Source of the DNA: Candidatus Aminicenantota bacterium
Lineage (GTDB): Bacteria > Acidobacteriota > Aminicenantia > UBA2199
DNA length: 34,457 bases
Direction of reading: 5' to 3'
NCBI GenBank assembly: GCA_023135565.1
Contig: JAGLSW010000869.1
Coordinates: 1-34,457 of the forward strand
Each line of letters opens with the position of its first letter. Position 1 is the first letter of the stretch. Made by a program: the position numbers and the translations under genes. Positions 5,172 to 29,825 of this stretch are shown here, piece by piece. Under the pieces are notes generated by a model. That model had not been told where the DNA came from. It saw only the letters and a program-made list of their open reading frames with translations, and made no database searches.

Positions 5172-8100
5172 TTTCGTTTGAACTTCCGTTTTTTGCCGGC
5201 GGTTTTGAATTCCCTATAATTTTTACCGGGATGGGCGACGGCGAATTCCAGTAATTTTATATAATCCCCGACAAAATGCTCGACGGTGACGGCGCTGAGA
5301 AGCGCTTTCTTATAAACCCACAGGGTGTCGATACCGTTTCCATATTCACCTACATAAGGTTCCAGGTCGAACTTAACATCCTGGAAGTGTTCAGTGTGAT
5401 AGGAAGAAAAAGGTTCCGCTTTCCCGGCCGCCGCCTGCATATTGGCCATATTAAAAGCTGCCGGGATGTCGGGGTAGCGCATCTTCTTCTCCCGGAAAAC
5501 CTTTTCCAGGGGGTAACCCTGGTGTTTAAAACATACCAGCACATCTTCGTGCACCCGCTGCAGTAATCCCGCGAAAGTTTCGTTCTCACCGATTTGCGTT
5601 TTAAACAAAACCGAGTTGACAAAAAAACCGATTATAGGATAGAGCGAATCATGCTCCCTGCCGGCATTGATAATAGAGCAAACTATATCTTTTCGACCGG
5701 CATAACGGGAAAGAGTCATAATAAAAGCGGTAAACATAACCATAAAAAGTGTCGTGTTTTGGGATTCGCCTAACTTTTTCAGGTTCTCTTTTAACTCTTC
5801 TCCTATTAGGACACGATACGAAGCGCCGCTCAGATCACGGCTGTCACCACCGATTTTCGTGGGCAGAGTAAGCCGGGAAATTCCGCCTTCTACTTTCGAC
5901 GCCCAAAAACGAAACGATTCTTCACTCTCAGCGCCCCCTGCCGCCCGGCGCACTTGCCATTGGGCAAAATCCTTATAGTGCAGGCTGAGAGGTTCCAGCC
6001 GGCCGGGTTTCCCGCTTCGGTAACTTTCATATAAATAAATCAGTTCTTTTTTAAAAATCTCCATGGACCAGCCATCGGAAATAATATGATGCATGGCGTA
6101 TATGAGTTTATAATTGTCGGCTGCCAATTTCACCGACAGCGTGTGAAATAACGGGGCCTTCTCCAGGCTAAAAACCCGGCCTGTCTCCTTCTTAAAAATC
6201 CTTTCCCATTCACCGTTCCTTTCCGCTTCCCCTAAGTGTGAAATGTCAACCTCCCGGAATGGGGATTTTATACCGGCCATGATAAACTGCACCGGTTTAT
6301 CATCGATCATTTTAAATTCGGTTCTCAAGCTTTCATGACGCTGAATGATATCTTCCACCGCCTTCCGCAGCGCCGGGCAGTCCACGGGGTGTGGCAAATC
6401 GACAACCCCGGGCATATTAAAAGCAGTGCTCCGCGGGTCTCGCCGGTGGATAAACCAGAGCCTTTCCTGGTTAAAAGAAAGGACATAATAGCTCTTTTTC
6501 TCCGCTTTCTCGATGGAAACATATTTCATTTTTACTGCTTCTTTTATATACCGCCCCGCTTCCCTTATAGTGGGGTAATCGAATATTTCAGCCAGCTCGA
6601 GCTTTACATTGAATTCTTTGTGAACCCTTGCTATCAGTATGGTTCCTTTTAGAGAATGACCGCCTAATTCAAAAAAATTGTCATCGATCCCGATTTCAGC
6701 GGCAATATTCAAAACTTGCGACCATAAAACGGCGAGTTTCTCTTCTATTTCACTGCCAGGGGCAGTATATTCTCTTTTGCGCAGGATTTCCGGTTCAGGC
6801 AGCAATTTCCTATCCACTTTGCCGTTTGGGGTCAGGGGAATCCTATCCAAAAACACAAAGTATGTGGGTATCATATAATCGGGCAGAACACGGGAAAGAA
6901 CTTCCCTGAGTTCCGCGATTTGCACTTCCGTCCCGCTGCTGTGCGCGACTATGTAAGCGCATAAGTATTTTTCTTTATTCAAAATTTTATCTAAAACAAC
7001 CGCTTCTTTGATTTTTTCGTGCTCTAACAACCGGGCTTCAATTTCACCCAACTCGATCCTGAAACCCCTTATCTTTACCTGGTGGTCGATACGGCCCAGG
7101 AATTCTATCTCGCCTTCCGGCAGCCAGCGGGCTAGATCACCGGTGCGGTAAAGAGTGACCGGCGCTTGGCGACCGGTGATTGCTGAAGACTGACCGGTTT
7201 GCCTCTCAGAGGCCGGGTGCGCCGCACCCTCACCGGTGCGGTGAAGTGTGACCGGCGATTGGCGACCGGGAGAATAAGAACTATCAAACCGCACAAATTT
7301 TTCCGCGGTGAGCCCGGGGCTGTTTAAATAACCGCGGGCATTTCCATCCCCTCCGATATATATCTCACCGCTTACGCCCAGGGGAACCGGCTTCAAACTT
7401 TTATCCAGGATATACAGTGAAGTGTTCGCAATGGGCTTCCCAATCGGGATGGTAACCGCCGAACCGGCAATGCTGTTAATAACATAGTAAGTCGCGTAAA
7501 CCGTGGTCTCGGTGGGGCCATATACATGGATAATCCTATCTTTCCCCATGTATTCCAGGGCTTTCCGCGCATGTTCCACCGATACTCTTTCGCCTCCGAA
7601 AAGGACTTTCCCGACATTGGCAAAACAATCTAACTGTAAATCCACCAGGACATTAAATAACGCCGTGGTGACAAAAAATACCGTTACTTTTTCCCGTTTT
7701 ATCAATGATGCCAGCCGGTCGACCGCCGCTGCCCTGGGCCGGTCTATCAGCACCAGCGCGGCCCCATTCAACAGGGCGCCGTAGATGTCGAACACCGAAC
7801 CGTCAAAAGCATAATTGGACAACTGCAGTAACCGGTCTGCGGATTTTATTTCTATATAGTTCGTGTCCTTGACGACTCTAACCACATTATAATGCCGGGT
7901 TAATACACCTTTGGGTTTGCCCGAGGTGCCGGAGGTATAAATAACATAAGCCAGGTTCGCGGAGGAACCGGGGGCCACGGCGCTTGAAACATGAAACCCT
8001 TCCGCCTCAATTTCAACCGGCGTATTGAAAAATACCGTTTCAACTTCGCTGCTTTTCAATTTTTCGACCTGCGCCGATAAACCGGGCGCAGCGAGCAGCA

Positions 8101-10015
8101 GCTTCGTACTGCTGTCTACCAGCATGCAGCGGATTCTTTCCGGGGGGAAATCGATCTCTATAGGTAAATAGGCCGCGCCTGCTTTTAATATGGACAGGAT
8201 CCCCACAATCATCTCTATCGAACGCTCTGCCATGAAAGCGACGATATCCCCGGTACGGACGCCCTTTTCGACCAATACCCGGGCCAGCCGGTCGCTTTCA
8301 CGATTCAACCGCCGGTAAGTTAGAGACACCCGGCGGCCTGTGGAGGAGCTGCCGTCACCGCTGCTTACACCAACCAGGGCTACTTTCCCGGGCGCCTTTT
8401 CTACCTGCTCTTCAAACAACCGCGGCAGCGTCTCCTCCCGGGGATAGCCTGTGACCGTGTCGTTAAAATCAAATAATATCCGCCGCTTCTCTGCTTCGGT
8501 GACAATATCTAAATCACCAAGCAAAGGATTTTCTTTCCGGGTAATTTCTTCGAACAAATGAAGCAAATGCCCGGTTAGACGCTGTATGGCGTCCCCGGTG
8601 AAAAACTCGCGATTATAATTTATCTCGATGTGTGCTTTTTGCCGGGAAAAAATGCATACCAGGGGATAGATCCTGCCCTCTTCGATAACCCCGGTTTTGG
8701 GGCCGCTTGTAAATTTTAGGAGTATATTAAAAAGACGATGTTCTACCGGTACGCTGCTCCACTCCTGGATGTCGAGCATCGGGAGGGCGGCGTACCCTTC
8801 TATCTTGCTTCTTAATTCCGCGATGGACTGTAGCCAGGGCGTTAGGGCGGAAGATGGCGTTACCGTCAATGGCGCCGGGTATAATCCTTCCCCTTGCCGG
8901 GAAAACTCCATGGCGAAAAGTACTTTTTCTTCACGGCAATAGCGGCTTAAAAGGAGCGCCCATGCCCCGGTCAGCAGTGTTTCCATTGTTATGCCGCACT
9001 TTTCGGTAAAAGCGCCTGCCGCCGTTACCAGGGCAGCGGGAATCTCTCTACATTCCACACCCACGATGTCCTCTTCCCGGGACAATTCTACCGTTCGATC
9101 CGCTTCCCCGGGCAGCATAGTGGGAACATCTATTCCCGCTAAATTGGACCTCCAGAAGGGTTCCGCTTCATGCGCGGGGATAACGGCGTCGCTGCGCACG
9201 AAACAAGCACGGTGAAATAATGCCACACTCCCGAGCCGGCGGTATATCTGCTCAGGCCGGGCGTAGAAATCGGCTTGAAAAAACATTTTCCTTTGACCGG
9301 TTTTCATGGCCGCTTTTATTAAATCCGTCACAAGACTTGCGCCATAGCCTCTCTTCCTCTGCTTTACCGTTACGCCTAAACTGTAGAGCCCGCAGAAATC
9401 TTCCCTGCCGGGAATCATGGTGCAGATGCCGATAGGCGCTTCATGTAAATAACCGACAAAATGCGTCACATTCCGCGCCATTTCGCCATAAAACTGCGAC
9501 GTTAAGGCATCTCCCATATACACACGGCGGCTGGTGAAAGATTCATTAAATATTTCTACGAAATGATCTAACTCAACGCTCGACTGCACCGGTTTCATCT
9601 CTATAGGAACCTCCGCCGCCGGCGGCGGGTCTTCATGCGGGTACCCCATCCAGGTCTCGGCCCTGTTTAATTCATAACCGGCTTTGCTTAAAAACGCGGC
9701 GGCTTCCTCGAAACCGGGCGATTCCGCCACTAAGTAAACACTGGGGTACCGCCTGTGTTCGAGGGCGAAGGTTTCGATTTTGCCGATGCACTCCGGGAGC
9801 CGGGTTTCCGATCCCGGGAATACCGCGGCGTGGTTCCATACAAAGTCCACGGTGGCGTTTGAATAGGCAAATAACCCGAATTCATTAGTTTGTGTTTTGG
9901 AAACAAATTGCCCGGTTTGCAGGCGATAATGCTCTTTGAGCATTTCTTCCGCCTGCAGCAGTTCGCCGGGTGTTGACCATACTTTCCTATTGAGTACTAA
10001 ATCTTTAATGTTCAC
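5162..10015 (-). CDS. GNAT-(half C)-A-T-C hybrid NRPS
   Basis: A 1617-residue NRPS with an acyltransferase-like front end. Residues 1-135 are a poorly recognised lead-in. Residues 137-275 look like a GNAT N-acyltransferase, with the acetyl-CoA loop RKRGYG at 220-225 and a YRRLG element near the end. Residues 284-518 are the C-terminal half of a condensation domain without an HHxxxDG half. An A domain follows (about 530-1075; A3 YTSGTSGKPKG, A5 YGPTE, A8 KIRGFRIELGEIE, A10 PNGKVDRK), then T (LGGHSLK, Ser 1121) and a complete C (HHIISDG 1309-1315). Pocket residues read DGFFLGVVYK, the bacitracin-type isoleucine code. Residues about 917-959 hold an in-frame repeat insert at A7. The start is GTG (10013-10015), with GGGAG eight bases upstream. 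The protein ends in a basic tail, unlike the other proteins that end in C. It probably extends the chain after the polyketide module, although a GNAT front end could also mark a capping or starter function. Confidence 0.94.
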   Translation of the reverse strand: MNIKDLVLNRKVWSTPGELLQAEEMLKEHYRLQTGQFVSKTQTNEFGLFAYSNATVDFVWNHAAVFPGSETRLPECIGKIETFALEHRRYPSVYLVAESPGFEEAAAFLSKAGYELNRAETWMGYPHEDPPPAAEVPIEMKPVQSSVELDHFVEIFNESFTSRRVYMGDALTSQFYGEMARNVTHFVGYLHEAPIGICTMIPGREDFCGLYSLGVTVKQRKRGYGASLVTDLIKAAMKTGQRKMFFQADFYARPEQIYRRLGSVALFHRACFVRSDAVIPAHEAEPFWRSNLAGIDVPTMLPGEADRTVELSREEDIVGVECREIPAALVTAAGAFTEKCGITMETLLTGAWALLLSRYCREEKVLFAMEFSRQGEGLYPAPLTVTPSSALTPWLQSIAELRSKIEGYAALPMLDIQEWSSVPVEHRLFNILLKFTSGPKTGVIEEGRIYPLVCIFSRQKAHIEINYNREFFTGDAIQRLTGHLLHLFEEITRKENPLLGDLDIVTEAEKRRILFDFNDTVTGYPREETLPRLFEEQVEKAPGKVALVGVSSGDGSSSTGRRVSLTYRRLNRESDRLARVLVEKGVRTGDIVAFMAERSIEMIVGILSILKAGAAYLPIEIDFPPERIRCMLVDSSTKLLLAAPGLSAQVEKLKSSEVETVFFNTPVEIEAEGFHVSSAVAPGSSANLAYVIYTSGTSGKPKGVLTRHYNVVRVVKDTNYIEIKSADRLLQLSNYAFDGSVFDIYGALLNGAALVLIDRPRAAAVDRLASLIKREKVTVFFVTTALFNVLVDLQLDCFANVGKVLFGGERVSVEHARKALEYMGKDRIIHVYGPTETTVYATYYVINSIAGSAVTIPIGKPIANTSLYILDKSLKPVPLGVSGEIYIGGDGNARGYLNSPGLTAEKFVRFDSSYSPGRQSPVTLHRTGEGAAHPASERQTGQSSAITGRQAPVTLYRTGDLARWLPEGEIEFLGRIDHQVKIRGFRIELGEIEARLLEHEKIKEAVVLDKILNKEKYLCAYIVAHSSGTEVQIAELREVLSRVLPDYMIPTYFVFLDRIPLTPNGKVDRKLLPEPEILRKREYTAPGSEIEEKLAVLWSQVLNIAAEIGIDDNFFELGGHSLKGTILIARVHKEFNVKLELAEIFDYPTIREAGRYIKEAVKMKYVSIEKAEKKSYYVLSFNQERLWFIHRRDPRSTAFNMPGVVDLPHPVDCPALRKAVEDIIQRHESLRTEFKMIDDKPVQFIMAGIKSPFREVDISHLGEAERNGEWERIFKKETGRVFSLEKAPLFHTLSVKLAADNYKLIYAMHHIISDGWSMEIFKKELIYLYESYRSGKPGRLEPLSLHYKDFAQWQVRRAAGGAESEESFRFWASKVEGGISRLTLPTKIGGDSRDLSGASYRVLIGEELKENLKKLGESQNTTLFMVMFTAFIMTLSRYAGRKDIVCSIINAGREHDSLYPIIGFFVNSVLFKTQIGENETFAGLLQRVHEDVLVCFKHQGYPLEKVFREKKMRYPDIPAAFNMANMQAAAGKAEPFSSYHTEHFQDVKFDLEPYVGEYGNGIDTLWVYKKALLSAVTVEHFVGDYIKLLEFAVAHPGKNYREFKTAGKKRKFKRNRG
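7137..7269 (-). repeat. In-frame hairpin element at A7, copy in the GNAT-NRPS gene
   Basis: Two 40-base direct copies (7137-7176 and 7230-7269, three mismatches) flank a core with the hairpin GGGTGCGCCGCACCC (7215-7229, six-base stem, GCC loop). A second inverted repeat, CCTCTCAGAGG, is at 7202-7212. The insert keeps the frame and codes RTGEGAAHPASE, followed by a second TLYRTGD that restores the A7 motif. Thirty-three bases (7205-7237) are identical to 27726-27758. Confidence 0.88.
8462..9166 (-). other. Half condensation domain behind the GNAT domain
   Basis: Codes residues 284-518 of the protein at 5162-10015. It starts at EPFWRSNLAG, the equivalent of YWxxxLAG, continues through GITMETLLTGAWALLLSRY and ends at FDFNDT before the A domain. 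It is more diverged than the other two half-C segments. Its position directly after the GNAT suggests the GNAT occupies the place of the missing first lobe. Confidence 0.75.
9182..10015 (-). other. GNAT acyltransferase-like N-terminal region
   Basis: Codes residues 1-278. The recognisable GNAT core is 137-275: FVGYLHEAPIGICTMI as central strands, YSLGVTVKQRKRGYGA as the CoA-binding motif A, and a C-terminal YRRLGSVALFHRACFV element. GNAT domains transfer acyl groups from CoA, often to amines; some PKS loading modules use diverged forms in chain initiation. What this one acts on cannot be read from the sequence. Residues 1-135 could be a second, degenerate GNAT-like half. Confidence 0.75.
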
Positions 10016-10036: not shown

Positions 10037-13000
10037 TTAAAATTCAAAATCACTCTCGATACCCTGGTAAATATCGGATTTTACCTCTCCCAGATCATGG
10101 GATATTTCGATATCTTTGAGCTTGATGTCTTCATCACCTGTAATCGCAGCTAACACCTCTTTAAAATATTTGATAAACCGTTCTATTGTCGCCCGTTTAA
10201 AAAGCGCCGTGCTGTATGTCAGGGCCAAAATAAGACATTCCGTCCTCTCGATACTGGTCAAAATTAAATCGAACTTGGATTGAGTTCCTTTATAACCATA
10301 ATTTTCGTTTTCTATCCCGGGCTGCTCTTCTTCCGCGGTTCCTGCCGCATCTCCGGGAGGCGCTTCGACTTTCTCCGAACGGTGGGTATACATCACGTCA
10401 AATATAGGATTGCGACCGGCGTCTCTCTTTACCTGCATTTTATCGACTAAATCTTCAAATTGATAATCCTGGTTATCGAAAGCTTGCAGCGTCCTCTCCC
10501 TGACCTCTTTTAAAAAACCGGCAAAGGTTTTCTCACCGCCGGGGTAGTTTCGTAAAACCAGGGTATTGACAAACATGCCGATAATACTCTCTAAGTCGGT
10601 ATGCCTGCGTCCCATGGCTACTGTCCCGATTATAATGTCTTCCCGGCCGGTGAGCTTGTAAAGAAATACATTAAATATGGTAAATACCACGATAAACATG
10701 GTGGCGCCGGATGATTTCACATAAGCTCTTAATTTTTCCAGCGCCTCGCCGTCGATGTCGAACCGGGTCATATCACCGGCAAAATCCTGTACCTCAGGTC
10801 TTTCATAATCGGCAGGCAAGTCCAGTTGGGATAGGCCGCCTGAAAACTCTTTCAACCAATATTCTTCTTGTTTTTTTATTTCACCGGACCGTATCAAAAA
10901 ATTCTGCCATCCTGAATAATCTTTGTACTGGAGCCTTAGTGCGGGCAGGCTTTCTCCACCGTAAAGTCGAATAAATTCGGATACAAATACCTGGTGCGAT
11001 AAGCCGTCGCTAATAATATGATGAAAATCCGCCATGAGGATGTATTCTTTATCTGCTATTTTTATCAATACTGCCCTGAAAAGGGGGGCTCTACCGAGGT
11101 CGAAAGGCCGGACAAAATCATTGATGATATCCTGGAGGGTGCGCTCGTTTCCTGTATCGTAATATTCTACATTAAATTCGATTTCCCGGCTGTGCAGTAT
11201 CTTCTGTACAGGCTCCTTATCGAGCAGTTCAACGTATGTTCTCAGGCTGTCATGGCGCCGGATCAACTTCCTGAAGGTTTTCTCGATTTTCTCTTTGTCA
11301 AAGTCGGTCTCCAATATAAGTTTCTTCAATGTCGGTTGGTTATAGACAATACTATCTTTCTCCAATTGGTGTGCGATATATATCCTCTTCTGGGCGGATG
11401 AAAGCAAATAGTATTCCTTTTCCTCGGCGGGTTTTATGGAAATATAGACGTCTTCCCCACTGTTCTCCAGGATATATTCGGCCAGTTTTTTGATGGTAGG
11501 CCTGGAAAAAAATACTTGCAGCGGTATATCTATATTCAATGCCTTATGAATATGAGAAGCCACTGTCATGACCTTTAACGAGTCCCCGCCCAATTCAAAA
11601 AAATCATCGTGAATCCCCACCCGGTTAATCCCGAAAAAATTCTGCCAGGTTTTCGCCAATGTTTGTTCCGTCTTGTTTCCAGGCGCGGCATATTCGCTGC
11701 CCAGTTCCGGTCGCTGCAGCATCTCGTAAGAAGATGATAATGATTCTTCCGCAGCGTCCTCATCCACTCCCGCCTCACGGCTCTTTTCCCTGAGAAGATG
11801 CTCAAACAGGGCGTTGAGGTCGCGGGTTGAGACAGCCACACGGCTTAAATCCTTTTCCATTAAACGCTTGAATATCTCCACGCCTTCCAGCGGCGTCACT
11901 GCTCCCGAGAACCGGTTTTCGGAGTTTTGACTTCTATTCCCCTGCGAAGCCCTTCTCTCTATTGCTGCTGCGGCCATACCCACTTCTTTCCAGCCACACC
12001 AATTAATAGCTAAAGTATACACTCCATTTTTCCCGGCCCTGTAACATGCATAAGCTTCAAGAAACTCATTGGCTGCATTATAACCGACCTGACCAAAGTT
12101 CTCTATATAAAGATTGTTTCCTAAAGATGAAAAAAGGACGAAGAAATCAGGCGCTGCATCCAGTTCCGTCAATATTTTATCAAAAACCAGGGTGCCCTTC
12201 ACTTTTGGAGCTAAAACACTTTCCGTCATGCGCCGGTTTCTCCTCTGGATAACACCATGGTAATCGCCGACTCCGGCAGTATGGAGAATCCCGTTAACCG
12301 GGCCGAATCGCTCTTTTGCCCGGGAAAAAACATCTTGCATCTGCTCTAAGTTAGAGACATCCGCACGAACGATCATAACTTCAGCACCGAGGTTTTCCCA
12401 TTCTTTTATTTTTTTTATCTTAAGATTTACCTTATCCTTTTCGCCGTGGGATTCCAACCGGCTGCTCCACTCTGCCCGGGAGGGGAAAGGAGAAGAACCC
12501 ACCAGGATAAGCCGGGCTTTTACTGCCCTGGCCAGGTATTCCGCCAGGGTAAATCCGATACCCCCTAAACCGCCGGTAATAAGGTATACTCCCCCTTCCC
12601 GGAAACGGCGGCCAACTCCTTCAACCCCATCTAAGCGTACCGGTTTCACTGTGGGCGCCCAGGAATAACTGCCGCGAATGGCGGTTACCCTGTGGGAGAA
12701 ATCGCTGTGTAATTCTTGCAGCAAAAGTTCTACCCGGCTGTTTCCATGCATGGAGGCCGCTGCGGGAATATCTATGTTTTTACATTGGATAGTGGGATAT
12801 TCTAAGGGAATCACCTTAACAGCTCCTAACAGGGCTGCTTTTCCGGGATGTAGAATCTCATCCCCCATTACTTCATGAAGGCCGTCGCTTACCACAGCCA
12901 TTTTAATGTTGTTTGTGATTCCCCGGCTGCCGATGGCCCGGGCAATCTCCAGCAAACTGAATAAACCGGTATCCTGGATGCCGTCGATAGTCTCCAGGTT

Positions 13001-19200: not shown

Positions 19201-22200
19201 GCCGTCGGATATAATGTGATGCATGTCCGCCAGGAGCAGGTTCTTGTTTTTCTCCCGGTTGATTAAACCGACCCGCAGCAGCGGGGCCCGGGAAAGATCA
19301 AAAGGACGAATGAACGTTTTTATTATCTCCTCATTTCCTGCTCCCTGCTCCTTGCTCCCGGTGGTATAATATTCGAGTTCAAATTCTATATCAACGGGTT
19401 CATGTATCATTTGCACCGGTTCTCCTGCTTTAATTGCAAAAGATGTGCGCAGACTCTCATGCCGGTTTATCATCTTCCTGAAAGCACCGGCAAACCGTTC
19501 CTTGTCGAGTGCGCCGGACAACCATACGACTATAGGCATATTGTAAAAGGTTTCCCCTTCTCCCATCTGCTGCAGGATATAAAGCCGCTTCTGCGCCGCG
19601 GATAAGGAGTAATAATCCTTTGCTTGCGCCCGTTCCAGGCCTGAAAATCTACTTTTCCCAGCTCGCTCGATATAACCGGACAGGCCTCTTATGGTGGGGT
19701 TTTCGAATACTTCCGTGTAAGGGAGGTCAATATCGAATCTCTTGTATACCTGCCCGGTCAACCTGGTTATGGATAAAGAGTGTCCACCGCGTTCAAAAAA
19801 ATTATCATCTATCCCGACGGTTTGCGCCGGCGCGCCCAATATTTCCGCCCATATTTCAACTAATTTCTTTTGTGTTTCATCCTTGGGAACGCTGTACTTT
19901 GCCCGGGATAACCCGGTTTCCGGCTTCGGTAGAGCTTTCCGGTCTATTTTTCCGCTTGCGGTTAAAGGTATGCGCTCCATCTCTACGAAATGAGCGGGCA
20001 CCATATAACCGGGCAGGCTTTGAGAAAGAAATTCCCGCGGTTCAACGATTGCTGTTTGGGCACTGCCGGTTTCGGCTTCCCCAAATACGACGTAAGCGCA
20101 GAGATATTTTTCCCCGGCCGCGGCGGAAGCCTTACCGGGACTTTCACCGGCTGTAACTACAGCTTCTTTTATGCCTGGATGCTTTAACAACCGGTTCTCG
20201 ATTTCTCCCAACTCAACCCGGAAACCACGAATTTTCACCTGCCGGTCCATCCGGCCAAGGTATTCTATACTGCCGTCAGGAAGCCATCGAGTTAGGTCGC
20301 CGGTTTTGTAGATTCTCCCGGGAATTCCCGGCTCTTGGGGTTTTGGGGAGGGGCCGGGTTTGCATAGATCAAAGGGAAATTTCTCCGCGCTGAGTTCCGG
20401 GTTATTGAGGTATCCGCGAGCCAGCCCGGCGCCTGAAATACACAGCTCTCCGGGCACTCCTACAGGCAGCAGGCTGTCATACTTATCCAAAATGTAAAGC
20501 TGGATATTCTGCATAGGCTTACCGATAGGAACACTGCCGCTGCCTTCCCATTTCGCCAGGGAATAACCGCAAGCATACACCGTACCTTCGGTGGGGCCAT
20601 ATATGTTCTCTAATCGAATTCCCGTATTTAAAACCTGGAATTTTTTTACCGGTTCGGGCAGCAGGGCTTCCCCGGCGGCAAAAATATATTTTAAAGTAGA
20701 CAACTTATGTATGTTCCGGGAATCCAATTCATCCACGAATACATTAAACATGGAGGGAACAAAATTTATATGAGTTACGGCTGCATTCGCTATCGCATCG
20801 ACTATCCTGCGCGGATATTTCTCAGCGCCGGGCTCCAGTATCGCTAACCTGCCGCCGGCAAAAAACCAGCCGAATAGTTCAGTCACGGAGACATCGAACA
20901 TATAGGATGTTTTAAATAGGTAAACGCCGGATTCTTCTAAGGGATACTTCCTTTGTAAGGCAGTTAGTATATTGACTGCCGCTTTATGTTCTACCAGTAC
21001 TCCTTTGGGTTTGCCGGTGGAACCGGAGGTGTAAATCACATAGGCCGGATGTGAGGAATAAGACTTCGAAGACATATAGGACGAATGTTTTGCCCTGCTC
21101 GATCTCTTTTTTTCCTCAACCCGGGCTTCAGCTCCAACTTCAGCCTGGGATCGAGACCCGGGTTTAGCAGCAGCCGGTGAATCTATAAAAACCGTCTCTC
21201 CCTGCCAATCATCCAACTCAATAGCCGCACTGCGCAAATTCCCGGTGATGATCAGCAGCCCGGCACTGCTGTCGTTCAATATATAACGCTTTCTCTGCGC
21301 GGGATAACCGGGTTCGATAGGCAAATACGCGGCTCCTGATTTTAATATGGCAAAAATTCCGATAACCATCTCTATGGAACGTTCTACCATTATCCCTACT
21401 AAAACGCCGGATCCGGCTCCCTTTTCGGCCAGTTCTAAAGTGAGGCTGTTTGCTTCCCGGTCCAATTGCTTGTAAGTCAACTGGAGACACGGCCCATAAG
21501 TCTTGTCCACTTGTTGATCCCGGCTTTCTCCCCGCTGCATTTCCTGCCCGGCACACTGCACTGTTAAAGCAATATTGTCCGGCGTTCTAACTGCCTGTTC
21601 TTCAAACAACCGGTGAATCGCCTTGCCTGCCGGGAAAGGAAATTCCGTGTCGTTAAAATCATACGACAACTGCTTCTTTTCTTCTTGCGACAACAATTCC
21701 ACTTCGCATATTTTAATATCCGGTTTAGAAAGGGTGTCATGTAACAATTTCCGGGCATGAAGAATAACCCGTTCCATGGTTGTTTTTTCAAACAAATCCG
21801 GGTTGAATTCCAACCGGCAGGCAATTTCATCGTCCTTTCTCGTAAAAGAGAATAGGGTGTCCGGTTTTATATGACTGAGGTAACTCCTATCATGAATATT
21901 CTCTACTACTACCGCTACATCAAACAGGGGGGAAGCTCCTCCAAAAGAAAAAAGATTTAATCGCGGAGTTAATACTTCAATGGGATAATTTTGATTTTCT
22001 TCCGCTTCATTAACGGTCTCTTTTACGGAGAGCAGCAATTCCCGGAAAGTCATTTCCCTTTTTATCTTATTTCTTAAAACCAACACGGTATTGACAAAAT
22101 CTTCTTTAACTTCCTGTTTATAAATAGGTGCCCCGACGATAATATCGCTGTTCCCGCTGTATTTATGCAGCAAAAGAACAAGCTGCGCCGTAAGAATCAT

Positions 22201-22431
22201 ATATAAGGCATAATCCGATTCCTTGCTCAATCTTTTTAATCCTGTAAAGAGTTCACCGCTGAATGTAAATTTCACCCGGTCCTTACCGGCGTCTTTTTCG
22301 CTTGTTTTGAAATCCTTTGGAAACCCGGTTTTAGTCAGGTCACCGGATAACTTAGCCAACCAATAATCTCTTTCTTTGACATTCCGGTTAGCTGCCAGCA
22401 TCAAAATATCGGAATAACTTCTACCCTGCAT
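16210..22431 (-). CDS. NRPS, (half C)-A-T-C-A-T
   Basis: A 2073-residue two-module NRPS. Residues 1-258 are a C-terminal half condensation domain (ERDYWLAKLSG at 20-30, FVNTLVLR near 112). A domain 1 is 268-836, T1 about 845-925, a complete C about 938-1375 (HHIISDG 1071-1077), A domain 2 1395-1957, T2 1967-2040 (LGGNSLD, Ser2003). It ends in a basic tail (RQMRNMRKRRTS) that meets the KS of the next protein. Pocket residues by eye are DVTNFAIVYK for the first A and DWWHCGMIIK for the second; neither matches a code I know. T1 reads ERGGHSLS where LGGHSL is usual, but keeps its serine. Both A domains carry extra linkers just before A3, sharing SSKSYSS, and the second has a hairpin-bearing insert at A7 (about 1811-1845). 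The start ATG has AGGAG 11 bases upstream, overlapping the previous gene's TAG stop. Confidence 0.95.
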   Translation of the reverse strand: MQGRSYSDILMLAANRNVKERDYWLAKLSGDLTKTGFPKDFKTSEKDAGKDRVKFTFSGELFTGLKRLSKESDYALYMILTAQLVLLLHKYSGNSDIIVGAPIYKQEVKEDFVNTVLVLRNKIKREMTFRELLLSVKETVNEAEENQNYPIEVLTPRLNLFSFGGASPLFDVAVVVENIHDRSYLSHIKPDTLFSFTRKDDEIACRLEFNPDLFEKTTMERVILHARKLLHDTLSKPDIKICEVELLSQEEKKQLSYDFNDTEFPFPAGKAIHRLFEEQAVRTPDNIALTVQCAGQEMQRGESRDQQVDKTYGPCLQLTYKQLDREANSLTLELAEKGAGSGVLVGIMVERSIEMVIGIFAILKSGAAYLPIEPGYPAQRKRYILNDSSAGLLIITGNLRSAAIELDDWQGETVFIDSPAAAKPGSRSQAEVGAEARVEEKKRSSRAKHSSYMSSKSYSSHPAYVIYTSGSTGKPKGVLVEHKAAVNILTALQRKYPLEESGVYLFKTSYMFDVSVTELFGWFFAGGRLAILEPGAEKYPRRIVDAIANAAVTHINFVPSMFNVFVDELDSRNIHKLSTLKYIFAAGEALLPEPVKKFQVLNTGIRLENIYGPTEGTVYACGYSLAKWEGSGSVPIGKPMQNIQLYILDKYDSLLPVGVPGELCISGAGLARGYLNNPELSAEKFPFDLCKPGPSPKPQEPGIPGRIYKTGDLTRWLPDGSIEYLGRMDRQVKIRGFRVELGEIENRLLKHPGIKEAVVTAGESPGKASAAAGEKYLCAYVVFGEAETGSAQTAIVEPREFLSQSLPGYMVPAHFVEMERIPLTASGKIDRKALPKPETGLSRAKYSVPKDETQKKLVEIWAEILGAPAQTVGIDDNFFERGGHSLSITRLTGQVYKRFDIDLPYTEVFENPTIRGLSGYIERAGKSRFSGLERAQAKDYYSLSAAQKRLYILQQMGEGETFYNMPIVVWLSGALDKERFAGAFRKMINRHESLRTSFAIKAGEPVQMIHEPVDIEFELEYYTTGSKEQGAGNEEIIKTFIRPFDLSRAPLLRVGLINREKNKNLLLADMHHIISDGLSLGIFLREFPVLYAGEELAPLNLQYKDYSEWQNNEKGKESIKKQEQYWQEQFAGEIPVLNLPTDFPRPAIQSFAGSAVDFTLCEEETAALNEMAAKYNATLFMVLLTIFNLSLSKISGREDIVIGTPIAGRRHPDLSGIIGMFVNTLALRNYPLGGKTFEAFLVEVRSGTLKAFENQDYQFEDLVEFLALTRDAGRNPLFDVMFTLQSLDPASSGIPRVDIPDLKLEPYKYENEIAKFDLTLNVRENADILSCNLSYCTKLFTQETVERCINYFKKVVTAVLKDPRAKIFDIEIISPEEKREILYSFNNRETKYPIAKTIHGLFEEQAAAAPDSTALVSNTEVGGRKSKTGDVILTYKELNEKSNRLALLLQETGLAPGDTAGIIIERSIEMIVGITAVLKTGAAYLPMSPKNPRQRNNYMLRDSSAKLLLTSRSLSKEAALFENWPGQTVYLDDPVTDKAGEPGISTPVFYSSHMSSKSYSSALPGGSPLAYIIYTSGSTGIPKGVPITHANFCPLIHWGYKHLELDAAHRVVQNLSYFFDWSVWEIFITLTTGASLYIVSEELMLDSAAYVNFINRKKITVLHSTPSQYQVVIGTDSPEPVMLSTLKHLCLGAERLTGDLLKRSYETVSEDCRIYNMYGPTEATIISAVLEIDKTGEGYRMLSGIPIGIPVANAVLLVLDKGLRMCPVNVSGELYIAGDGLAPGYLNDPEKSAKSFVRNIFENIEGDYLYKTGEGAAPPPSKNLDNRLSKLTGHRSPITLYRTGDRCRWLPGGSIEFLDRIDRQVKIRGFRIELGEIESLLLKKKEIKEALVTVYEKESGKKYLCAYIVPGEKIEVQSIRDYLSGELPEYMIPAYFMQLETLPLTPNGKLDRKSLPVPQVKTGTDYIAPQSANEKIIADIWAEVLALEKIGTAGNFFDLGGNSLDFIKINDKLKQVFERDLPLVMMFRYPTVGAFARYLEEENYSLMIDRTAEKKEGGNRLRQMRNMRKRRTS
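16220..16225 (-). promoter_or_regulatory. Ribosome binding site for the PKS gene
   Basis: AAGGAG nine bases before the ATG at 16210; the start overlaps the previous stop as TGATG. Confidence 0.8.
16901..17008 (-). repeat. In-frame hairpin element at A7, copy in the third NRPS gene
   Basis: Same site as the other two copies. The left flank (16901-16926) matches 27682-27707 with two mismatches. The hairpin is GGGGGCGCCGCCCCC (16976-16990): the same stem length and loop, but a T-A pair has become G-C on both sides. It codes KTGEGAAPPPSKN, then SPITLYRTGD. Confidence 0.85.
17750..17784 (-). repeat. GGACTTA-type repeat before A3 (second A domain, third NRPS)
   Basis: Matches 21053-21086 at 30 of 34 bases. 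Codes YSSHMSSKSYSS just before A3. Confidence 0.75.
19334..19360 (-). repeat. CTGCTCC-type tandem repeat in a C domain loop
   Basis: Near-repeats of CTGCTCC/TTGCTCC code SKEQGAGNEE between the LEYYTTG strand and IIKTFIRPFDL of the C domain in the protein at 16210-22431. The loop varies in length among the C domains of this window. Confidence 0.55.
20318..20331 (-). repeat. 14-base perfect palindrome near A7
   Basis: CCGGGAATTCCCGG codes part of EPGIPGRIYKTGD, in a proline-rich extra loop before A7 of the first A domain of the protein at 16210-22431. This is the same loop that carries the hairpin elements in other A domains. Confidence 0.6.
21053..21086 (-). repeat. GGACTTA-type repeat before A3 (first A domain, third NRPS)
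   Basis: Matches 17750-17783 at 30 of 34 bases. Codes HSSYMSSKSYSS just before A3 (AYVIYTSGSTGKPKG). Confidence 0.75.
21115..21160 (-). repeat. Glu/Ala-rich linker repeat before A3
   Basis: CAACYT-type repeating DNA codes AEVGAEARVEE. It resembles 28551-28600, at the same place in the first A domain of the upstream protein. Confidence 0.5.
21658..22431 (-). other. N-terminal half condensation domain (protein 16210-22431)
   Basis: Codes residues 1-258, starting MQGRSYSDILMLAANRN and then ERDYWLAKLSG. It keeps the second-lobe elements (IIVGAPIYK, FVNTVLVLR, SPLFDVAVVVEN) and ends at the A-domain boundary (YDFNDT). No first lobe or HHxxxDG exists upstream in frame; the previous stop codon is only 14 bases before the ATG. 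Confidence 0.85.
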
Positions 22432-22442
22432 AATATTATTAA

Positions 22443-22447
22443 CTCCT
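22443..22447 (-). promoter_or_regulatory. Ribosome binding site for the third NRPS gene
   Basis: AGGAG 11 bases before the ATG at 22431. It overlaps the TAG stop of the upstream gene, so termination and re-initiation sites coincide. Confidence 0.75.
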
Positions 22448-25400
22448 AAAATCCAAATTCAATTTCCCGTTTTTCCGCTTTTACAGTTGATAATTTATGA
22501 GAAAGTGTTATATCTTTCAATTGAATATCCCTGTTCTTCATCAAAAACGCCACAATTTCTTTAAAATATTCACTGATTCTCCTGATGGTCTCTTCTTTAA
22601 ATAACCCTGTTTTATATACAAAACCAAACCTCAATTTGCCTTCCAGTTCTATTCCTTGAAGCGTTAGATCAAATTTTGCCGTCCTGTTCTCGAAGCGATA
22701 AGGGCTTAATCTTAAACCGGGTATCTCGACCGCCACTGTATCCATGTTTTGCAATATGAACATCACATCAAACAGGGAATTACGGGCAGGATCCCGGTCA
22801 GCCTGTACTTTCGCAGCCAAATCCTCAAAGGGGTAATCCTGGTTCTCAAAGGCGGCTAAAGTCCTCGCTTTCGTGTCTTGCAAGAATTCAAAAAAAGTTA
22901 TCTCTCCTGCGGCCCGGTTCCTCAGCGCCAGCGTATTTATGAACATACCGATTAGCGAGTCTAAATCGCTGTGCCTGCGCCCGGCTGTGGGAGTTCCGAT
23001 TACAATATCTTCCTGCCCGCTTATTTTCGCTAACAGGACACAATAGACCGCCAACAAGACCATATACAACGTTACTTCCCGGTCCCGGGCTATTTCATTC
23101 AAGGCTGCCGTTTCTTTTGCTCCAAGTTCAAAAACAAGCGCTGCACCGGCAAAATCCTGGTTCGCCGGGCGAACGAAATCTATAGGTAGATCGAGCAGCG
23201 GGATGCCTTCGCTATATTGCTCTAACCAGTACTGTTCCTGCCTTTTCCTGCTTTCCATTTCTTTGTCGCTTTTTTGCCATTCCGCATAATCTTTATATTG
23301 GAGTTTTAAAGACGGTAATTCCTCCCCGGCATATAATTCCATTAAATCCCGGGTAAAGATTCCCAAAGATGTGCCGTCCGATATGATGTGATGCATGTCG
23401 AACATTAAGATATATTTCTCGCTTGCCGGTTCTATCAGGCCGACACGCAAAAGCGGGGCCCGGGATAGATCGAAAGGACGTACAAACTTCTCTATAATCG
23501 CGCCCGGCGCTGTGCCGTCCGGGGTGTAGTGTTCGATTTCAAACTCTATGGCGGCGGTATCATGTATCTTTTGTACCGGCGCCCCTTCTTGAATTTCAAA
23601 ATATGTACGCAAGCTTTCATGCCTGTCTATCATCCTGCGGAAGGTCTCTTCGATCCTGTCTTTATCCAGGACTCCTTCCAGCAGTACCGCTGCGGGCATA
23701 TTGTAGGCAGTGCCGGCCGGGTTCATCCGCTGGAAAATAAATACTCTTTCCTGGGCTGAAGAAAGAACATAATACTCTTTTGCCGATACCGGTTCGATTG
23801 CCGCATATTCATGTCGCCCTAGACTGCGCAAGTGTTGGGCTAACTCCATGATGGTGGGTGTTTTAAACACTTCGGAGAGGAGGATTTTTTTATCGAGTTT
23901 CTTGTGAATCCTGGAGACCATAAGCGTGGCTTTCAGGGAATGCCCTCCTAATTCAAAAAAATTAGCATCCATACTGATCTGTCCTTCGTCTATATCTAAT
24001 AATTCAGACCAGATTCCTGTCAGGGTTACCTCCACCTCATCCCGGGGAGCTGTGTACTTTCCTACTTCATCCGCCTCCGGTTCCGGTAACTTATCCCGGT
24101 CGACTTTGCCGTTGGGCATCAGGGGCAGACTTTCCATAAGGATAATATGAGGTATCATATATCGAGGCAAATCATCGCTGAGCTTTTTCTTGATCCCGGC
24201 TAATTCGATATCGCCTACTACATAAGCAGTTAGGAATTTTTGACCGCCCTTATCCTCTTTGACCAGGACTACACACTCACGAATATTTTCGATGGACAAT
24301 ATTTTACTTTCTACTTCCCCGGGCTCCACCCTGAATCCGCGGATTTTAACCTGGGAATCCTTCCTGCCCCGTAATTCTATATTGCCATCTTCATGCCATC
24401 TACCGATATCGCCGGAACGGTATAGTTTCAAGCCGTCTTTAGACAATTGGGGATGTTTTATTAACTTCTGCCCAGTTAAAACGGGATCGTTTATATATCC
24501 TAAAACTTCCGAACTGCCTTTAACAAAAATCTCTCCCCATACTTTGATCGGCACGGGGTTGAAATTTTCATCTAAAATGTAAATATCGACATTGTTAACG
24601 GGCTTTCCCGCCGGGGGGATGGGCGTCCGGCCGGCACCGGCAGCATTTAAAGTATAGGAAGTAACTACGTGCATCTCGGTAGAACCGTAATGATTGTGCA
24701 GTTGTAGGTGGGGATTCAAATCTAAAAACCTTTTCAAACCCAGGGTTATTTTTAACTGCTCCCCGGCTGTAATAATGTGTTTCAGGCTGTGTTTAAAAGA
24801 ACGATTCCAGCGGCTCGATTCATTAAATAAAAAATTGAGATAGGAAAAAGGTAAAAAGAGCACTTCTATTCGATGTTCACTCAAGAAATCCATCAAATAG
24901 TCTATGTCCTGCCTTTCGACGTCACCGATCAAATGCAGTTCGCCGGCGCCGGTCAGGGTGCCCATAATTTCCTGGAAGGAGACACAAAAATTAATAGAGG
25001 TAAATTGCAAACAGCGCAGCGAACAGTCGATGGTGGTTTTTTCATTCTGCCATTGGATAAGATTAGTTAGTATATCGTGGGACAACATGGCTCCGTTGGG
25101 CATGCCGGTAGAACCGGAAGTGTAATTTACATACAAAATATCGGCGGGGCTGTTCAACGGCGGCGGATTCCCTGTTTTCTCTAAAGATATCCTATCCCGG
25201 TGTTCATTTATATCCAGGATTTCTCCCGGGTAATTAGCAAACAATTCAGCCCTCATTTCGTCGATGATCAGCAAATCCGCCCGGCTGTTATCGAGCACAT
25301 GCAGTACCCGGTCTTTGGGATAGGTGGGGTCTACCGCCAGGTAAGCAGCACCGGCTTTGACAACCGCCAAAAGCACGATAATCATGTCGATAGAACGGTT

Positions 25401-28400: not shown

Positions 28401-29825
28401 ACCCCAAAACATCAGCGGACAAAAGTTGCCGTGAGTGATAGGCACACCTTTGGGTTCGCCGGTAGAACCGGAAGTGTAGATAACATAAGCCACAGAGCAC
28501 ACAGAGCACACAGAGGACAAATCTTTTAATTTACCCGGCCCCTTTTTTTTCTCAACCTGAGCTTGAGCTTCAGCCCCGGTTTCAACTTCAGCAGCCGGGT
28601 CATCTATAAAAACCGTCTCACCTTGCCAATCGTCCAACCCAGAAGCTGTTTTCCTTAAACTACCGGTAGTAAGCAGCAGGCCGGAACTGCAATCACGCAG
28701 CATATAGCTGCTCCTAACCGCCGGATTCTTAGGGTTTAAGGGCAGATAAGCGCCGCCTGCTTTTAATATACCCAGTATGCCGACAATCATTTCGATAGAT
28801 CGCTCCACCATAATTCCTACAATATCACCGGTTTTTAAGCCTTTATTTATTAAAAACCGGGCCAGTATAGCGGCTTCATTTTCTAACTCTTGGTATGTTA
28901 AAGAGGCGCTGCTTCCTGCTGTGATCGAGCCTTTACTCCCGGTTTCTATATCGACGACAGCGATGTTTTTCGGGCTTTTCTTTACTTGTTCCGCAAATAA
29001 ACCGTGTATCGTTCTATCCCCGGGAAAGTCGCTTGCCCCGGCATTAAAATCGCTCAACAACTGCTTCTTCTCTGCTTTCGACAACATGTCGATATCGGCC
29101 AGCCCTGTATCCATGTCGGCAAGAACTGCTTGCAGCAAGTTCCTAAAATGACCGCTGATTCTTTCTACAGTGGCCTTAGCATATAAAGAAGCATTATATT
29201 CCACATATCCTTCGATTCGACCGGCAGTTCTCGAAAAAGAAAAAATCATGCCCGGAGCAATAGGGGATAGATGCTTTTTATCATGGATGTTTTCGACTAA
29301 TATAGCAATTTCGGATAAAGGAAAATCTCCCGCTGTAAAGGGCATACCTAACTGTTCCAACAATACTTCAATGGGATAATTGCGGTTTTTACCGGCTTCC
29401 GCAATAGCTTGTTTTACCTGGAACAGCAGTTCTTTGAAGGTCATCCTCTCTTCTATTTGATTTCTCAGTAATAATACAGTATTCACAAATTCTTTTTCAA
29501 TCTTCGGTTTTAAAATCGGGACACTAATTATAATATCTTTAATTCCCAAATACCGGTATATTAAAGCGTTTAAACCCGCGGCAAGTATTATGTGCAGCCT
29601 GATATCGGAAGCGGCACTTAAACTTATCAACCCGGCGGATAACTCTTCATCCCATTTAAAATTTACGGTCTGATAAGACTTTTTGCCGCTGTCCGCCGTC
29701 TTATAGTCATAAGGGAAACTGCTCTTTACCGGTTCTCCCGACAATTTGTCCAGCCAATAATCTCTCTCTTCGAGCTTTTGACCGGCAGCGAGCCACAACT
29801 TATCTTTGTGTTCCCTGGTTGTCAT
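22446..29825 (-). CDS. NRPS, (half C)-A-T-C-A-T-C
   Basis: A 2459-residue two-module NRPS. Residues 1-258 are a C-terminal half condensation domain (RDYWLDKLSG 21-30, FVNTVLLLR near 113) with no HHxxxDG half. A domain 1 is 270-830, T1 840-915 (LGGHSLK, Ser879), C1 930-1375 (HHIINDG 1069-1075), A domain 2 1395-1917, T2 1925-2000 (LGGHSLK), C2 2015-2440 (HHIISDG 2145-2151). The first A pocket reads DWWHAGMIMK, unknown but close to that of the second A domain of the next gene. The second A has the frame of a proline pocket (xVQFIAHVVK) but Cys1614 replaces the Asp that holds the substrate amine; its A3 reads TGMPNGAM and A5 YGSTE. A repeat insert occupies A7 of the first A domain (683-715). ATG overlaps the upstream stop as ATGA, with AAGGAG eight bases upstream. 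The protein ends in REIEFGF. Confidence 0.95.
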   Translation of the reverse strand: MTTREHKDKLWLAAGQKLEERDYWLDKLSGEPVKSSFPYDYKTADSGKKSYQTVNFKWDEELSAGLISLSAASDIRLHIILAAGLNALIYRYLGIKDIIISVPILKPKIEKEFVNTVLLLRNQIEERMTFKELLFQVKQAIAEAGKNRNYPIEVLLEQLGMPFTAGDFPLSEIAILVENIHDKKHLSPIAPGMIFSFSRTAGRIEGYVEYNASLYAKATVERISGHFRNLLQAVLADMDTGLADIDMLSKAEKKQLLSDFNAGASDFPGDRTIHGLFAEQVKKSPKNIAVVDIETGSKGSITAGSSASLTYQELENEAAILARFLINKGLKTGDIVGIMVERSIEMIVGILGILKAGGAYLPLNPKNPAVRSSYMLRDCSSGLLLTTGSLRKTASGLDDWQGETVFIDDPAAEVETGAEAQAQVEKKKGPGKLKDLSSVCSVCSVAYVIYTSGSTGEPKGVPITHGNFCPLMFWGYAHLGLGPEDRVIQNLSYYFDWSVWEIFIALTGGSPLYMISEDVLLNPEAEVDFILKNKITTLHITPTQFQYLINVGKKLETLKYLAIGAEKLTHDLAVRSFEWVHEDCRVFNMYGPTEATIMAAVLEIQRRKVEDYKDLSSVPIGKSIANTALLVLDKNKRLCPIGVEGELYIGGDGLAQGYINNPELSAEKFVNRSDKSYFTALSSPITLYRTGEGAAHPASEGLAAHQSPITLYRTGDRCRWLPDGTVEFLGRLDFQVKIRGYRIEPGEIESSLLNHPGINEVLVTTGQYENGENYLCSYLVAAGQAVESGGMREYLSARLPDYMVPAYFIFLDKMPLNPNGKIDLKALPQPEMGLSGQEYVAPRNDSEEKLTAIWAEVLGFDNQTAIGIDDNFFELGGHSLKATSLVHHIYKEFAVNTEIEEVFANPTIRELAQKLAGIGEQGYTEIIPTEEKDYYELSYAQRRLWILCQFEEDSTAYNMPSALTICGEFNIPAFEQALQSMVERHDSLRTIFVTIDGVPCQKIPGSADFKFSLEQTDLRRLEGAAGEKEAGNIFMETANKAFDLTKGPMSCFKIVRLEEKKYLLIFNIHHIINDGWSQGNMNNEIITLYNAYVDKKENPLPPLKLQYKDYTRWHNDLIAAGSFYESRQYWLEKLKDKPNGTELPFDFSRSPIQTFNGGRVSFILDEEKTSRLHKVSLEEEATLFMSLLTLLNIFLYKYTGQRDIVIGAPIAARKRPELYPLVGFLVNTLVYRNELTPGQSFKELLTAIKKETLTCYKYQDYPFDLLVEELGLDRDLSQSPLFNVMLAHNNADTEDIDLTLQGVTVSGYAHIEDFNMSKFDLIFFMDERAGRVNIRIEYNSDLFERSSIERMANNFQALLDNVIENLSVPISTLKCIEKKEYEKVIKKFNDNDYEFPRLTLQQLFEKQAQSIPDKIAVIGTETGRQRTGTGNETAVSGKDLPAISYGDLNKEANRMASYLREKYRVKSNHVIGISMNRSIDMIIVLLAVVKAGAAYLAVDPTYPKDRVLHVLDNSRADLLIIDEMRAELFANYPGEILDINEHRDRISLEKTGNPPPLNSPADILYVNYTSGSTGMPNGAMLSHDILTNLIQWQNEKTTIDCSLRCLQFTSINFCVSFQEIMGTLTGAGELHLIGDVERQDIDYLMDFLSEHRIEVLFLPFSYLNFLFNESSRWNRSFKHSLKHIITAGEQLKITLGLKRFLDLNPHLQLHNHYGSTEMHVVTSYTLNAAGAGRTPIPPAGKPVNNVDIYILDENFNPVPIKVWGEIFVKGSSEVLGYINDPVLTGQKLIKHPQLSKDGLKLYRSGDIGRWHEDGNIELRGRKDSQVKIRGFRVEPGEVESKILSIENIRECVVLVKEDKGGQKFLTAYVVGDIELAGIKKKLSDDLPRYMIPHIILMESLPLMPNGKVDRDKLPEPEADEVGKYTAPRDEVEVTLTGIWSELLDIDEGQISMDANFFELGGHSLKATLMVSRIHKKLDKKILLSEVFKTPTIMELAQHLRSLGRHEYAAIEPVSAKEYYVLSSAQERVFIFQRMNPAGTAYNMPAAVLLEGVLDKDRIEETFRRMIDRHESLRTYFEIQEGAPVQKIHDTAAIEFEIEHYTPDGTAPGAIIEKFVRPFDLSRAPLLRVGLIEPASEKYILMFDMHHIISDGTSLGIFTRDLMELYAGEELPSLKLQYKDYAEWQKSDKEMESRKRQEQYWLEQYSEGIPLLDLPIDFVRPANQDFAGAALVFELGAKETAALNEIARDREVTLYMVLLAVYCVLLAKISGQEDIVIGTPTAGRRHSDLDSLIGMFINTLALRNRAAGEITFFEFLQDTKARTLAAFENQDYPFEDLAAKVQADRDPARNSLFDVMFILQNMDTVAVEIPGLRLSPYRFENRTAKFDLTLQGIELEGKLRFGFVYKTGLFKEETIRRISEYFKEIVAFLMKNRDIQLKDITLSHKLSTVKAEKREIEFGF
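22449..22469 (-). other. Acidic/aromatic C-terminal tail (REIEFGF)
   Basis: Last seven residues of the protein at 22446-29825. The next protein begins with a half-C. Candidate docking element. Confidence 0.6.
24984..24986 (-). other. Asp-to-Cys change in a proline-like A domain pocket
   Basis: This codon reads TGT (Cys1614) in INFCVSFQEI. The aligned position in almost all alpha-amino-acid-activating A domains is Asp235 (GrsA numbering), which holds the substrate amine. The remaining pocket VQFIAHVVK matches the known proline pattern. Confidence 0.8.
27682..27779 (-). repeat. In-frame hairpin element at A7, copy in the second NRPS gene
   Basis: Two 26-base direct copies (27682-27707 and 27754-27779, one mismatch) flank a core with hairpin GGGTGCGCCGCACCC (27736-27750). 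It codes SPITLYRTGEGAAHPASEG and then SPITLYRTGD, so the A7 motif appears twice in a row and the frame is kept. Confidence 0.88.
27794..27815 (-). repeat. GGACTTA-type repeat near A7
   Basis: Contains AATAGGACTTATCGGACC and ends in CCTATT, giving a six-base inverted repeat. It codes NRSDKSYF, in the same reading phase as the related unit in the acyltransferase insert (SDKPDKS). Confidence 0.65.
28489..28520 (-). repeat. CACAGAG-type repeat before A3
   Basis: Three tandem CACAGAG units. The first 28 bases match 14295-14322 with three mismatches. It codes SSVCSVCSV directly before the A3 motif AYVIYTSGSTG of the first A domain of the protein at 22446-29825. Confidence 0.8.
28551..28600 (-). 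repeat. Glu/Ala-rich linker repeat before A3
   Basis: Repeating CTTGAGCTTCAG-like DNA codes AEVETGAEAQAQVEKKK upstream of A3. It resembles 21115-21160. Confidence 0.5.
29052..29825 (-). other. N-terminal half condensation domain (protein 22446-29825)
   Basis: Codes residues 1-258. The segment starts at the YWLxKLSG element that begins the second lobe of a C domain and continues through the IIISVPILK and FVNTVLLLR region to the A-domain boundary. The first lobe with HHxxxDG is absent, so it cannot catalyse condensation alone. The preceding protein already ends in a complete C domain. The first 30 residues resemble the start of the next gene product (LAAxxxxxERDYWLxKLSG). Confidence 0.85.

Follow-up and report, generated by a model that had tools for sequence, protein, structure and literature searches.

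The locus described here raises the question of what a GNAT fold would do in the middle of an NRPS/PKS assembly line, fused to half of a C domain in a protein that follows a PKS. The GNAT domains described from PKS proteins belong to loading modules (CurA, GphF, LynB1, PedI/labrenzin), where they adjoin an ACP and act on malonyl (PMC10127204, PMC6855096).

A GNAT-half-C protein follows a PKS within the line

The window, by which we mean the whole 34,457-nucleotide stretch of Candidatus Aminicenantota DNA that was analysed, holds a portion of a minus-strand NRPS/PKS assembly line from a draft genome of 7.6 Mb in 1261 contigs (Table 1). Within it, positions 8462-10015 of the minus strand correspond to residues 1-518 of a 1617-residue open reading frame, the GNAT gene, in which a 282-residue tandem GNAT-like unit precedes the second lobe, and only that lobe, of a C domain. 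This gene begins 21 bases after the end of the PKS gene, whose protein carries KR motifs for a beta-hydroxyl. Read by motif, the A-domain code of the GNAT gene is DGFFFGVVYK, an Ile-like code that agrees with an earlier sequence-only reading of this DNA, and Ile is its likely substrate.

The first two genes of the window show features of their own. An FkbM methyltransferase domain lies between A and T in the 29822-34456 protein (31829-32410, residues 683-876), and in the second A domain of the 22446-29825 (minus-strand) protein, near residue 1569, Cys replaces the usual Asp235 (FCVS; code CVQFTGHVVK), which suggests that this domain may take an unusual or non-amino-acid substrate.

Table 1 Genes, domains and tails in the window, with the basis of each assignment where given.
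Feature	Position	Strand	Remarks or basis
First gene in reading direction	34456-29822	-	A-FkbM methyltransferase-T-C
Second gene	29825-22446	-	
Third gene	22431-16210	-	
Fourth gene, PKS	16210-10037	-	KS-AT-KR-T-C; intact C domain, HHIISDG
GNAT gene	10015-5162	-	1617 aa, one ORF; tandem GNAT - half-C - A - T - C
Last gene	5153-3	-	
Degenerate GNAT-like N-terminal half, residues 1-137 (weak evidence)	9605..10015	-	Without CoA loop; predicted secondary structure, L002 layout
GNAT domain, residues 138-275	9191..9604	-	PF00583, secondary-structure order, Foldseek, ortholog
CoA loop RKRGYGA, R220-A226	9338..9358	-	Ortholog conservation
Tyr258 in IYRRLG	9242..9244	-	Invariant in ortholog and L002
Half-C, residues 283-518	8462..9169	-	C-domain second lobe without the HHxxxDG lobe; PF00668 positions 193-456 only
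A domain of GNAT gene	6818..8416	-	Ile-like code
T domain of GNAT gene	6545..6739	-	
C-terminal C domain of GNAT gene	5192..6493	-	HHIISDG present
Acidic C-terminal tail of PKS protein	10040..10105	-	...YQGIESDFEF
Tail directly upstream of half-C gene	22449..22466	-	EIEFGF
Tail	29825-29893		
Ordinary N-terminal half-C of another NRPS	21646..22431	-	
Ordinary N-terminal half-C	29037..29825	-	

The N-terminal unit contains a GNAT domain with a conserved CoA loop

Residues 154-246 match PF00583 with E=1.8e-6 and 28.7 bits against a curated cut-off of 20.7, and the ortholog in a sister Candidatus Aminicenantes MAG additionally matches FR47 (31.9 bits, cut-off 22.1). In a model of residues 1-518, the strands and helices of residues 138-275 follow one another as in a GNAT, and a Foldseek search with a model of residues 1-285 returned GNAT acetyltransferases on top (E about 1e-4), with aminoglycoside AAC(3)-like proteins among the first matches and the tandem GNATs 2wpx and VipF further down. 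The residue 1-285 model, built on two sequences, is of low confidence (mean pLDDT 43), so that the sequence match weighs more than the fold match, and how the two GNAT halves lie with respect to each other was left out of account for the same reason. The GNAT fold that the sequence-only reading placed at residues 137-275 is borne out by these matches, as is its RKRGYG loop for CoA binding: R220-K-R-G223-Y-G225-A226 fits the RxxGxGA and [QR]xxGx[GA] pattern of GNATs, and R220, G223, Y224, G225, A226 and Y258 are all kept in the sister ortholog.

Tyr258 occupies the position of the usual general acid of GNATs, and its retention together with that of the CoA loop speaks for an active CoA-dependent enzyme. 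In place of the Asp of AAC(3)-I (YDLAV, strand 4), the protein has Ser212 and its ortholog Asn; with the acidic residue absent, ordinary base catalysis may be lost, which counts against a standard N-acetyltransferase. Some active GNATs are without an acidic residue at that strand-4 position.

The insert proved larger than the GNAT domain first proposed. Residues 1-137, which have no Pfam match, are predicted to alternate helix and strand in a GNAT-like manner (pLDDT mostly <55), weak evidence that they may be a degenerate second GNAT. With this half also GNAT-like, the unit is similar to tandem-GNAT proteins, for example L002, a free-standing protein of 281 residues that has the same two-part layout as residues 1-275 and, as here, its CoA loop in the second half. 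Free-standing tandem GNATs (clavulanate pathway 2wpx, VipF 6wqb, L002) likewise comprise two GNAT-like halves in about 280-330 residues, whereas the present unit is fused to an NRPS and the resemblance of its N-terminal half is weak.

Loading GNATs (CurA, GphF, LynB1, PedI/labrenzin) share with this protein a GNAT fold inside an assembly-line protein, and their common superfamily, with its members in PKS loading modules (PMC10127204, PMC6855096), would be compatible with CurA/GphF-type chemistry, that is malonyl decarboxylation and carrier loading. Such a function is very improbable here, as the tandem GNAT is positioned mid-line, fused to a C lobe before an A domain and not beside a loading-module ACP, the next carrier is a T domain loaded by the A domain, with no adaptor domain seen, and CurA-type chains were absent from the PDB sequence matches and from the best 50 fold matches.

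The half-C is the second lobe of a C domain and stands outside the ordinary half-C clade

Of the 456-position Condensation profile, residues 284-515 cover positions 193-456 alone (E=6.7e-14), so that the first lobe is absent, as had been proposed, and no HHxxxDG occurs within residues 1-518. McyB C1 is the closest solved structure to the half-C (E=3.3e-19); in the 1-518 model, pLDDT is high in much of the half-C, and solved NRPS C domains were matched. With a complete C domain (HHIISDG) already supplied by the PKS protein upstream, the half-C is not needed for bond formation, nor does the GNAT-half-C fusion make good a broken C domain. The proposed placement, in a protein that should receive a chain from the PKS module, is supported and refined: the gene does follow the C domain that ends the PKS protein, and that domain is already intact.

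A tree of 34 second lobes gathers the ordinary N-terminal half-Cs in one clade (100/99) that excludes the GNAT-linked lobes, which sit on a long branch, weakly beside full C domains that start genes (63/48); the genes concerned seem to open clusters. By tblastn in its own genome, the half-C is nearest to the second lobes of full C domains at gene starts. A lobe on a long branch outside the half-C clade fits replacement of the first lobe in an ordinary C domain better than addition of a GNAT to a docking half-C, and a common N-terminal half-C to which a GNAT had been added was rejected on this tree.

The same affinities bear on a reading in which the amine of T-bound Ile is acylated by the GNAT, much as the LgrA formyltransferase domain reportedly caps its own substrate, and a second, shorter chain begins on this protein. 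Gene-opening full C domains are where starter C domains would be, and their lobes are the nearest to the half-C by tblastn and, weakly, in the tree; GNATs are also typically N-acyltransferases. We nevertheless think such a cap unlikely, given that the upstream gene ends in a tailed C domain only 21 bases off, in an order that is conserved, and that a capped Ile could not take the upstream chain.

The fusion is conserved in a sister species

The sister MAG has the same GNAT-half-C-A arrangement, with 47% identity across residues 2-518, separated by 17 bases from a preceding C domain whose last residues are ...YQGKESDFDF. The same fusion in a sister species indicates that it is real and conserved. 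An artefact of assembly or of reading frame in a metagenome bin, for which the draft state of the genome with its 1261 contigs might speak, is scarcely credible in view of the single open frame and of the recurrence of the fusion, at this identity, in an independent MAG. The PKS ortholog of the sister (57-58% identity) reaches the end of its own contig (C658), which would fit a missing piece, and the PKS likely precedes the GNAT gene there too. As to whether the arrangement occurs elsewhere and always after a PKS gene, which the sequence-only reading had raised, it recurs behind a tailed C domain, with the upstream PKS likely only.

By motif, the sister A domain has the code DVVDLGLVYK in place of DGFFFGVVYK. 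As the codes differ between the two species, the GNAT unit is not tied to Ile, and the different code argues against an Ile-specific job.

Among 142 genomes of the class, the GNAT-half-C unit was present in two, the source and the sister. A single-sequence scan of genome contigs gave no match, a two-sequence alignment search of genome contigs found the sister MAG only, and GNAT-half-C was not found in viral contigs. A phylum sample of 396 genomes contained distant GNATs in small frames only, and a PF00583 search of seven NRPS-rich genomes yielded no further GNAT in a frame of >1000 aa, frames of 907 and 949 aa being left out.

Acidic tails precede half-C domains at NRPS junctions

The GNAT gene directly follows a protein with an acidic tail, ESDFEF here and ESDFDF in the sister, and in related genomes, proteins ending in the DFxF motif pointed to NRPS junctions. 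At the first loci, the tail was found in 6/6 proteins before a half-C and in 0/11 others (by eye; Fisher test), some of the six being variant or extended, for example DFEL, or DFGFG plus more residues. A further sample comprised 60 N-terminal half-C starts picked by half-C score alone, 55 of them with a readable upstream protein. The upstream protein ends in [DEN][FW]x[FW] (strict form) in 32 of the 55 cases and in a looser form in 46, compared with about 0.03 expected by composition for the strict form; the P value for this excess ignores relatedness among sequences and so measures strength rather than a true probability. The composition expectation replaced a first control set, which tail-selected loci had contaminated.

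The upstream partner of a half-C is a C-domain protein or a radical-SAM protein, one of the latter (L053 2270-3976) being B12-binding radical-SAM by Pfam and the others assigned by sequence likeness. Proteins of ~570 residues between NRPS genes (L053 2270-3976, L054 2556-4277, L055 2288-3988) carry a tail as on C-domain proteins.

None of the 60 ordinary half-Cs has a long N-terminal extension: from the upstream stop to the YW motif there are <=49 residues in all 60, compared with 286 from the start codon in the GNAT gene. A sample of 395 other phylum genomes contained no profile match at E<=1e-20, a plasmid search with an ordinary half-C returned generic C domains only (<=34% identity), and a literature search found, in the library consulted, no half-C docking domain, nor Aminicenantes NRPS work describing one. 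The acidic DFxF tail and the half-C that follows it (window and loci L041-L056, L087-L146) suggest an undescribed docking pair. In betaHD/SLiM docking, too, a short C-terminal motif of one protein is matched with a folded domain at the N terminus of the following one (PMC11186497); in the present case a C-domain lobe would act as receptor, and the donor would be a C domain or a radical-SAM protein instead of a T domain. Since the GNAT-linked half-C lies outside the tail-following clade, tail docking at the GNAT gene is proposed by analogy.

These tails also bear on whether the tandem GNAT is an enzyme. It could instead be a docking or scaffold pseudoenzyme that takes up the DFEF tail of the PKS protein jointly with the C lobe and preserves the shape of the C-A interface, with no acyl transfer. 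This is consistent with the DFxF tails ahead of half-C starts across the family's NRPS-rich genomes, the Ser/Asn at the usual acidic position, the keeping of the GNAT unit across different A-domain codes, and the degenerate N-terminal GNAT half. On the other hand, both species have retained the CoA loop and Tyr258, and sixty ordinary half-Cs manage without an extension, which argues that a GNAT is not needed for docking. We regard a pseudoenzyme as the main rival reading, somewhat less probable than an acyltransferase.

Discussion

Our preferred reading, held tentatively and falling only somewhat short of an even chance, is that the fusion forms a subunit interface with a probably active CoA-dependent acyltransferase acting at the PKS-to-NRPS hand-over. 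The C domain of the PKS protein would join the beta-hydroxyacyl-peptide to Ile on the T domain of the GNAT gene, while contact of the DFEF tail with the N-terminal region would help to hold the PKS and GNAT proteins together. The GNAT would bind an acyl-CoA and acylate the thioester-bound intermediate at the hand-over, either on the beta-hydroxyl left by the KR or on a free amine, and the half-C would be a platform set between the GNAT and the A domain, not a bond-forming enzyme. The DFEF tail of the upstream protein gives the docking role indirect support.

Parts of this architecture have parallels. LgrA reportedly begins with a formyltransferase-A-T initiation module that starts its line; it likewise has an acyl-type transferase in front of an A domain, whereas the module described here is fed by a C domain upstream of it. 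The C* of thermoactinoamide ThdA is likewise a C remnant, probably inactive, that lies immediately before an A domain; unlike the half-C here, it stands at the opening of a starter module, with no GNAT described (PMC7253712).

Taken as a whole, it is possible, if doubtful, that a GNAT swapped for the donor lobe of a C domain has produced a mid-line acyltransferase-and-docking module, with a platform touched by a DFxF tail, and that across the lineage DFxF tails and C-lobe receptors link NRPS, PKS and radical-SAM proteins in a docking system not described before. With assembly-line GNATs known as loaders, one that works mid-line within the remains of a C domain would show the swap of a catalytic fold at an NRPS subunit border. 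The pair of tail and half-C, if it does dock, would explain how multi-protein lines keep their order, and would offer a new part for NRPS engineering.
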